Below are positions 14,773 to 61,892 of a DNA stretch of 64,000 nt, piece after piece. Below the pieces are notes generated by a model. It searched no databases. It saw only the letters and a list, made by a program, of their open reading frames with translations, and was not told the DNA's origin. Within the stretch, counting starts at the first letter, position 1. Each line of letters begins with the position of its first letter. Origin of the DNA: Haladaptatus caseinilyticus (lineage in GTDB: Archaea > Halobacteriota > Halobacteria > Halobacteriales > Haladaptataceae); assembly GCF_026248685.1 (NCBI RefSeq), contig NZ_CP111036.1, positions 1,488,001 to 1,552,000 on the forward strand, read 5' to 3'. The translations under genes and the position numbers were made by a program.

Positions 14773-14847
14773 TGGGCCCTATCGGATTCGAACCAATGAC
14801 CACCCGGTTATGAGCCGAGCGCTCTAACCAGACTGAGCTAAGGGCCC
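14773..14847 (-). tRNA. tRNA with CAT anticodon (Met or Ile2)
   Basis: The 75-base minus-strand gene folds with acceptor GGGCCCT/AGGGCCC, T arm ATTGG-TTCGAAT-CCGAT and an anticodon loop CTCATAA, anticodon CAT. It could be elongator methionine tRNA or the isoleucine-2 tRNA whose C34 becomes agmatidine. The sequence alone does not settle this for me. CCA is not encoded. A second tRNA lies about 110 bases upstream in its own direction. Confidence 0.88.
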
Positions 14848-14955
14848 TGTCGGCTATCGGTAATCCGTGACACCTCTTTAACGTACCGGGTTTTACGTGA
14901 ATACCGGCCGTTGAAAGACACAGCAATCACTCACGGAACAACGAACCGAGAGAAG

Positions 14956-15028
14956 CGCCGCCGCCAGGGCTCGAACCTGGGACAACCTGGGTAACAACCA
15001 GGTGCTCTACCAACTGAGCTACGGCGGC
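14956..15028 (-). tRNA. tRNA-Asn (anticodon GTT)
   Basis: The 73-base minus-strand gene has acceptor GCCGCCG/CGGCGGC, anticodon stem CCTGG/CCAGG with loop TTGTTAC (anticodon GTT) and T arm CCAGG-TTCGAGC-CCTGG. It lies next to the gene for the CCA-adding enzyme, which is divergently transcribed. Confidence 0.94.
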
Positions 15029-61088: not shown

Positions 61089-61161
61089 CGCCCGAGGCGG
61101 GATTTGAACCCGCGTCACAACCGTGACAGGGTTGTATGATGGGCCACTACACCACCCGGGC
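61089..61161 (-). tRNA. tRNA-Asp (anticodon GTC), copy A
   Basis: The 73-base minus-strand gene has acceptor GCCCGGG/CTCGGGC (one G-T), an anticodon loop CTGTCAC (anticodon GTC) and T arm GCGGG-TTCAAAT-CCCGC. CCA is not encoded. It is identical to copy B. A TATA-like cttaataagg lies on the minus strand about 35 bases upstream (near 61196). Confidence 0.95.
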
Positions 61162-61173
61162 TTTCGAACGCAT
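61089..61173. repeat. 85-bp direct repeat, left copy
   Basis: This covers the whole of tRNA-Asp copy A and 12 bases of its 5' flank (tttcgaacgcat). It is identical to 61711-61795, in the same orientation, 622 bp away. Identity ends abruptly at both sides. Confidence 0.85.
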
Positions 61174-61710
61174 CTATTTGTTTAGCCTGCCCTTATTAAG
61201 GGGTGTCGATTTTGTCCTTGTTTGATAGTCCGTGACATAAGATTGTTCGAACTATCGTATCTCTCCATCAAATTCGTAATCTTCTGCCCAGTTGATGGAG
61301 GGATGGTTTATTTCGGCGTCAAACCGAAGTTCCATTTTTTGCGTTGTCGCATCTTTATTTGCCCATCCTGTCTTACACTGCACTCGACAGATATTCTGAC
61401 CGCTATCCACTATAATATCGTATTTGTCGTTATCTCCGAATGGGACCGAGATACTATATCCACGGGAGATGAATGTATGGATTATCTCAGCCTCCGTCTC
61501 GCCTCCTTTGCCTTTCGTATTCATCCTTCTATACTCCCCAGTATATTAATATATTGGTATTTGAACATAACAATTGTTGTTTTAGATTATATAATAAATA
61601 TTAATGAATCAACGACAGCTGATAAAAAGGAACAGTACCGTTCTCGAATAGATGATTAAAATTCTGCAGTCACAGAGAATTTGCTATTCGAACGTTATTT
61701 CGTCAGAAAG
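61174..61710. mobile_element. AT-rich segment between tRNA-Asp copies
   Basis: The 537 bases between the two repeats are much more AT-rich than the surroundings (for example agtatattaatatattgg and aatattaatgaatc) and hold one gene, for a PD-(D/E)XK nuclease-like protein. No integrase or terminal inverted repeat is present. It may be a minimal tRNA-targeted element, or a nuclease gene inserted between older tandem tRNA copies. Confidence 0.4.
61252..61524 (-). CDS. Small PD-(D/E)XK endonuclease-like protein
   Basis: This 90-residue protein has the PD-(D/E)XK core of the intron-associated endonuclease/PDDEXK_5 type: E9 or E11 in KGGETEAEIIHTF, D36 in DKYDIIVD and the QxK variant in RVQCKTGW (Q49, K51). 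It has the basic and polar residues needed to bind DNA but is shorter than most homing enzymes. The ATG at 61524 follows aGAAGG and an AT-rich TATA-like region. It could cut a tRNA-gene target and drive spread of the segment, or cut another site. Its low GC content is unlike its neighbours. Confidence 0.75.
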   Translation of the reverse strand: MNTKGKGGETEAEIIHTFISRGYSISVPFGDNDKYDIIVDSGQNICRVQCKTGWANKDATTQKMELRFDAEINHPSINWAEDYEFDGEIR

Positions 61711-61783
61711 CGCCCGAGGCGGGATTTGAACCCGCGTCACAACCGTGACAGGGTTGTATGATGGGCCACTACACCACCCGGGC
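61711..61783 (-). tRNA. tRNA-Asp (anticodon GTC), copy B
   Basis: Identical in all 73 bases to copy A. It has its own upstream AT-containing box (cttaag near 61819). Both copies appear functional. Confidence 0.95.
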
Positions 61784-61795
61784 TTTCGAACGCAT
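61711..61795. repeat. 85-bp direct repeat, right copy
   Basis: Right copy of the 85-bp repeat that contains tRNA-Asp and 12 bases of 5' flank; see 61089-61173. Confidence 0.85.
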
Positions 61796-61892
61796 TTCAT
61801 TCTTTCTGGCTTGTATGCTTAAGGCTTTCCAAACGGAGGCAGTGTGTCGGGTCGTACCGAGCGGTGGTACGACCGCCGGTCGGCCCAAATCA

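Follow-up and report, generated by a model that had tools for sequence, protein, structure and literature searches.

A decayed PF11645 nuclease gene between two tRNA-Asp genes of Haladaptatus caseinilyticus and its tRNA-linked relatives in haloarchaea

Introduction

I-Ssp6803I is the homing endonuclease of a group I intron located in the tRNA-fMet gene of Synechocystis. LAGLIDADG introns of rRNA genes also reside in a stable-RNA gene, and they spread by cleavage of intronless alleles. Archaeal rDNA introns carrying LAGLIDADG genes have been described (PMC3943268). In phage T6 a free-standing GIY-YIG homing endonuclease, SegB, amplifies tRNA-Tyr (PMC13096335). The nuclease family considered here, Pfam PF11645, is already known, as is the concept of homing into tRNA genes; in the open-licence literature no description was found of tRNA-linked PF11645 nucleases in archaea, of a PF11645 nuclease encoded within a tRNA intron of an archaeon, or of immunity obtained by an anticodon-stem swap. 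Why archaeal tRNA genes have anticodon-loop introns and why certain isoacceptors vary in the anticodon stem are open questions, and this family may supply a direct answer that can be tested: the anticodon arm would be read by a parasite that cuts DNA.

The locus described here lies in a stretch of 64,000 nucleotides of the Haladaptatus caseinilyticus genome (contig NZ_CP111036.1, positions 1,488,001 to 1,552,000), hereafter the window. All features of the locus are on the minus strand, unless indicated otherwise.

The tRNA-Asp locus of the window

Two identical tRNA-Asp(GTC) genes, both detected by ARAGORN, lie on either side of a short nuclease ORF. Copy A, at 61711..61783 (ARAGORN start 61710/61711), is upstream of the ORF, and copy B, at 61089..61161, is downstream; both have the anticodon stem CAACC..GGTTG, in which pair 28:42 is A-T. 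The anticodon arm, which is the putative recognition region of the nuclease, spans 61740..61756 in copy A and 61118..61134 in copy B. An exact repeat of 85 bp (61089-61173 = 61711-61795) includes the 73 nt of the tRNA and 12 nt of 5' flank, and identity drops to 96% when the comparison is made over 95 nt. These identical leaders, at 61784..61795 for copy A and 61162..61173 for copy B, fall within the gene-conversion tract discussed below. Farther upstream, each gene has a TATA-like element conserved in Haladaptatus, GCCTTAAGC at 61817..61825 for copy A and CCCCTTAATAAGGG at 61190..61203 for copy B; their putative promoter function is proposed from the sequence and the alignment.

The first-pass annotation, made from the window alone, had reported two complete and identical tRNA-Asp genes with 12 nt of flank, and ARAGORN and the exact-repeat comparison agree on this point. 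It had also described the 537-bp segment between them as AT-rich; indeed, the GC content is 38.6% in 61162-61710 versus 58.7% for the whole window. Within this segment, the AT-rich spacer from copy A to the nuclease (61525..61710, no strand assigned) varies in length and sequence in the alignment of relatives. The absence of an integrase also held, none being present among the ORFs between the two genes, and no partial tRNA copy was found at the window locus.

Elsewhere in the window, a tRNA-Asn (14773-14847) and a tRNA-Met (14955-15028) are separated by a nuclease-free gap of 107 bp, which is the empty form of a site holding PF11645 nucleases in other haloarchaea. The anticodon stem of this tRNA-Asn, CCTGG..CCAGG, is unlike the Haloferacaceae-like form.

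The nuclease remnant

The ORF between the two tRNA genes (61252..61524, 90 aa) belongs to clade c1 of the Asp-linked nucleases. It matches Pfam PF11645 (PDDEXK_5) with an E value of 7e-22, well over the family cut-off, and its genome has no other PF11645 match. Its match in the PDB is 2OST, the I-Ssp6803I structure, with a profile E value of 2e-11; the PADLOC homing endonuclease model matches with an E value of 2e-10, and a search of NCBIfam returned nothing. The residues E11, D36, Q49 and K51 are invariant in an alignment of 14 relatives, the window ORF included. An intact relative scores PF11645 at 1.5e-42; for the intact relative L001, a clade-c1 nuclease of Haladaptatus litoreus, the predicted model has a pLDDT of 88, and its best structural match in Foldseek is again 2OST (E 2e-9, TM 0.77).

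Haloarchaeal relatives of the window ORF are 130-135 aa long. An in-frame deletion has removed about 47 residues from the window ORF, numbers 59-105 in the intact relatives, and its two ends align; the junction, where about 47 codons are gone between residues 58 and 59, is located approximately at 61342..61356. This loss is visible by comparison with relatives and not from the window alone, and it leaves the ORF without a full-length core domain. The first-pass annotation had described a 90-residue nuclease with an E..D..QxK site: its residues and family are right, but the protein is not an intact small nuclease. The first-pass annotation, which knew of no described system of this form, had missed that the nuclease family was already named. 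Judged by these alignments, the window gene is best read as the remnant of a PF11645 member and not as a working one; being internally deleted, it probably cuts nothing now.

The window's genome belongs to a family in which PF11645 is matched in 25 of 28 genomes, and the genome table counts 16 intact and 9 broken copies at tRNA-Asp loci, with that of the window among the latter. The median dN/dS for 33 independent pairs of intact nucleases across the order is 0.10. The numbers of intact and broken copies, together with the low dN/dS between intact pairs, point to a gene that is kept up during its mobile phase and degenerates afterwards.

Distribution of the family and linkage to tRNA genes

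PF11645 is present in 194 of the 392 sampled Halobacteriales genomes. The 159 copies examined, which comprise nearly all those listed for the window's family and the best-scoring ones of the order, all have a tRNA gene linked to them in the same orientation: Asp in 110 cases, Pro in 25, Lys in 11, Asn in 8, Ser in 2, Arg in 2 and Gly in 1. In a first ARAGORN scan 145 of them were within 1.5 kb of a tRNA gene, always on the same strand, while about 4% would be expected by chance, a rough estimate based on an assumed 50 tRNA genes per 3.7 Mb. Once introns were allowed, 12 of the remaining 14 were found to adjoin intron-containing tRNA genes; at L183 a program call of Gly was re-read from the sequence as Arg(TCT). 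The thirteenth is L155, whose nuclease lies within a tRNA-Lys intron (see below). In the last of the 14 (L104, nuclease at 2504-2893), the 3' end of a tRNA-Pro, CGGGCGGTCCCAC, lies just upstream of the nuclease, and an apparent integrated element, read by eye, parts the tRNA-Pro from it. The nuclease is downstream of the tRNA in 139 of the 159 cases, with a median distance of 222 bp for those 139. Among low-scoring PF11645 members, five of the seven looked at have no nearby tRNA, and thus the statement of tRNA linkage is limited to the high-scoring family. The first-pass annotation had asked whether homologues also lie beside tRNA genes, and all 159 copies examined do; homologues unrelated to tRNA genes, which would have spoken against its reading, were found among the low-scoring members and not in the high-scoring family. 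At one locus (L196, nuclease at 2504-2899), which carries the most divergent nuclease of the set, a tRNA-Gly(TCC) is followed by the nuclease and, 12 nt beyond it, by a 25-nt partial copy of the tRNA-Gly 3' end.

A search of plasmids for relatives found none, and in the same phylum outside Halobacteriales there were only six weak matches, all below the cut-off. Two viruses have PF11645 nucleases over the cut-off, and in both the gene follows a tRNA-Asn, after 2 bp in the archaeal virus HSTV-4 (L353, 2890-3426) and after 24 bp in Klebsiella phage FKP10 (L355, 2405-2932). These proteins have 35-36% identity to the haloarchaeal Asp lineage, and viruses are possible vehicles for transfer.

In a tree of 144 intact proteins the nuclease lineages are separate for each type of tRNA: 6 changes suffice to place the seven tRNA labels, which is the minimum, compared with a mean of 43.7 in shuffles, although the tree is based on few columns and many inner forks are unresolved. 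Host families are intermixed inside the tRNA-type clades. In the window's family (Haladaptatus, Halorussus) three nuclease clades alternate at a single tRNA-Asp locus, and differing clades at one locus also occur within a genus. The intermixing of host families and the presence of different clades at one locus within a genus argue for horizontal spread of the nucleases relative to the host tree.

Empty and occupied alleles of one site were found at the Asp locus, in three genera and in G142, which has a single, nuclease-free tRNA-Asp, and at the Asn-Met locus. The filled loci, which carry the nuclease, differ from the empty ones by a few hundred bp. Alleles without the insert, for which the first-pass annotation had proposed to search, do exist: besides G142, there are several genera in which empty loci occur alongside filled ones.

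The doubled tRNA-Asp gene

Most genomes of families f1, f5, f7 and f8 contain two tRNA-Asp genes, with or without the nuclease, while most of f13 and many of f4 contain one, again irrespective of the nuclease; the overall range is 1 to 4 copies. Tandem tRNA-Asp pairs lacking a nuclease are common, nucleases are also found beside single tRNA-Asp genes, and within one genus single-tRNA loci occur in both empty and filled form. Of the sampled nucleases, 37/159 sit between two tRNA-Asp genes; in family f8 the nuclease usually comes after both. In Haladaptatus each tRNA-Asp copy has its own conserved TATA-like element. The tRNA duplication is independent of the nuclease.

The last 14 nt of the 5' flank have 80% identity between the copies of one genome, compared with 54-58% between genomes, and farther upstream there is no excess identity within the genome. 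The two copies are kept alike by gene conversion that covers the tRNA and a short stretch of leader, and as a consequence both copies of the window carry the c1-type stem. Of the two models put forward by the first-pass annotation, that of a tandem tRNA duplication with a free-standing homing nuclease inserted was mostly right, as regards the free-standing, homing-type gene, the separately promoted tRNAs and gene conversion, but it missed that the nuclease is decayed here. The other model, a selfish cassette carrying its own tRNA, does not agree with the common nuclease-less tandem pairs and with the nucleases that adjoin one tRNA-Asp.

At several loci (L113, L016, L160, L170, L022 and others) tRNA-Asp is followed by a series of 22-nt copies of its 3' end from the T-loop onwards, GGTTCAAATCCCGCCTCGGGCG, which lie about 110-150 bp apart, in units that each contain hairpins and an inverted T-arm, GGGATTTGAACC. 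Comparable units follow some tRNA-Lys, Arg and Asn genes. The 22-nt copies start at a match to the T-loop motif cut by phage SegB (PMC13096335). Their interpretation as footprints of nuclease insertion was dropped, since they are about equally common in nuclease-less genomes.

Stem alleles and introns of the anticodon arm

The Asp-linked nucleases split into three clades, c1, c2 and c3, and pair 28:42 of the neighbouring tRNA-Asp is associated with the clade (Cramer's V 0.956): it is A-T with c1 in 59 of 60 cases and G-C with c2 in 13 of 13 and with c3 in 23 of 24, so that c2 and c3 share one of the two alleles. Within the 12 genera where c1 occurs together with another clade, the rule holds at 66 of 67 loci, a result reached by 0 of 5000 within-genus permutations. 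Conversely, the acceptor pair 7:66 is not related to the clade (V 0.11, 36/67, p=0.69) and tracks the genus instead (V 0.94), even though its 3' strand sits between the anticodon arm and the nuclease. Passive linkage would have given the opposite pattern, and hitchhiking of the stem allele is thus disfavoured. Broken Asp copies obey the rule as well, apart from one mixed case, G176, where the nuclease is only a fragment; L032 is an exception to the rule. When all genomes with the nuclease were compared with all those without it, no general tRNA-Asp difference that could confer immunity was seen; the signal emerges only after separation of the clades.

The second commonest neighbour, tRNA-Pro(TGG), shows 13 anticodon-stem forms across the 37 genomes compared, and pairing is kept in 183 of 185 stem cells. 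In 23 genomes where both isoacceptors were compared, Pro(TGG) has six stem forms and Pro(CGG) one. Examples of variable Pro(TGG) loci are L036, L045, L116, L141, L157, L172, L248-L262 and L356-L358.

For other tRNA types, the association is with introns. At L155 the anticodon loop of tRNA-Lys(TTT) has an intron of 451 nt that contains an entire PF11645 ORF (2504-2893); this was first read by eye, and ARAGORN, allowed longer introns, then agreed with it. The intron occupies the usual site of archaeal tRNA introns and resembles them in the fold of its ends; in all the other examined copies the nuclease is free-standing, and the family is therefore not group I intron-encoded. An anticodon-loop intron is present in 10 of 10 tRNA-Lys genes linked to a nuclease versus 10 of 29 genomes without nuclease (Fisher p=4e-4, relatedness ignored), and in 7 of 12 Asn-linked cases versus 0 of 8 without nuclease (Fisher p=0.015, relatedness again ignored). 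The pre-tRNAs fold in a bulge-helix-bulge-like manner at the exon borders. The other five Asn-linked cases are intronless (G021, G068, G124, G285 and G039), and in G021 the tRNA-Asn next to an apparently intact nuclease does not differ from the tRNA-Asn of relatives with an empty site. The Ser- and Gly-linked cases have neither an intron nor a visible immune change.

Taken together, the ORF within the L155 intron, the association of Lys and Asn nucleases with introns, that of pair 28:42 with the Asp clades and the stem variability of Pro(TGG) suggest that the anticodon arm is likely the nuclease target.

Proposed mechanism and alternative explanations

We consider it probable, with some reserve, that the ORF in the window is a copy, now dying, from a family of free-standing homing endonucleases whose lineages would each be dedicated to one tRNA, would cut the anticodon arm and would travel together with an immune allele. 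The intact enzyme would recognise the quasi-palindromic anticodon arm of one type of tRNA gene, here tRNA-Asp(GTC), and cut alleles lacking the linked change that gives immunity; when the break is repaired from the chromosome of the carrier, the immune tRNA allele and the nuclease gene, which lies one to five hundred bases off, would be copied together. Immunity would be provided by an anticodon-loop intron for Lys, Arg and part of Asn, and by a compensatory swap of an anticodon-stem pair for Asp and probably Pro; either change would alter the site and leave the mature tRNA usable. A third of the nuclease length is gone in the window, and both tRNA-Asp genes keep the clade-c1 stem allele. The second tRNA-Asp is a separate tandem gene that has a putative promoter of its own and stays identical to the first through gene conversion.

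A different possibility is that the nuclease has another target or function and gathers downstream of tRNAs as a passenger, because insertions there are harmless and read-through transcription is available, with the links to alleles and introns as side effects of linkage. The same-strand downstream position in 139/159 copies suits read-through expression, and the intronless, allele-neutral Ser, Gly and some Asn cases would also be in line with it; however, fidelity to one tRNA type over deep divergence, a location inside a tRNA intron (L155) and an association with the anticodon-stem pair in which the acceptor pair has no part would all be unexpected, and we regard this explanation as unlikely, although it is the strongest of the rivals. 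Rather less probable is a nuclease that serves its host, in defence or in tRNA amplification as SegB does (PMC13096335), instead of being selfish. The match to the PADLOC model, the purifying selection and the variable tRNA-Asp copy number are compatible with such a role; frequent decay, which affects 9 of the 25 tRNA-Asp-locus copies in the window's family, a patchy presence and the fact that two tRNA-Asp copies are usual also where the nuclease is missing argue against it.

The remaining alternatives concern how the locus was assembled. A minimal selfish cassette carrying its own complete tRNA-Asp would explain the two identical copies that flank the window nuclease and the other nucleases found between two such genes, but it is very improbable, given the tandem pairs devoid of nuclease, the nucleases beside a single tRNA-Asp with empty single-tRNA relatives, the usual f8 position after both copies and a promoter-like conserved element for each tRNA. 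Haloarchaeal proviruses are known to integrate into tRNA genes (PMC8651126), and the tRNA location and the partial tRNA copies could in principle derive from tyrosine-recombinase elements; the 22-nt 3'-end copies near many loci and the apparent element of L104 would fit such an origin. Nevertheless, the window locus has no integrase, partial copies are about as frequent where the nuclease is absent, and filled and empty loci differ by a few hundred bp only, which makes a provirus remnant hardly credible.

If homing with a linked immune allele is the correct reading, its consequences may extend beyond single loci. We lean, with less assurance than for the reading itself, towards the view that selfish nucleases, each on one essential tRNA, drive haloarchaeal tRNA evolution, and that some archaeal tRNA introns and stem variants are homing scars that outlast the nuclease, the window being one example. 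Such a system would also supply a set of natural tRNA-specific DNA nucleases and would be a case of immunity reached through a compensatory base-pair swap in an essential RNA.

Comparison with known systems

The closest described relative is I-Ssp6803I (PDB 2OST), which has both Pfam family and fold in common with the haloarchaeal nucleases. Differently from it, the haloarchaeal members are mostly free-standing beside a tRNA gene and not intron-encoded, and the introns that accompany them are short and of archaeal type, with bulge-helix-bulge-like folds, and not group I. Moreover, they use seven tRNA types, their immunity appears to include stem swaps, and the window copy is decayed. Viral PF11645 nucleases, those of HSTV-4 and FKP10, are likewise tRNA-adjacent members of the family, but they reside in viral genomes. 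SegB resembles the haloarchaeal nucleases in being free-standing and located beside tRNA genes, and it cuts within tRNA genes and drives tRNA duplication (PMC13096335); it differs in its unrelated nuclease fold, its viral origin and the absence of a preference among tRNA isotypes. The LAGLIDADG endonucleases of archaeal rRNA introns are more distant, since they belong to another nuclease family, have an rRNA target and are not free-standing. The haloarchaeal genes would thus widen homing of the I-Ssp6803I type from one cyanobacterial intron to many free-standing archaeal genes.
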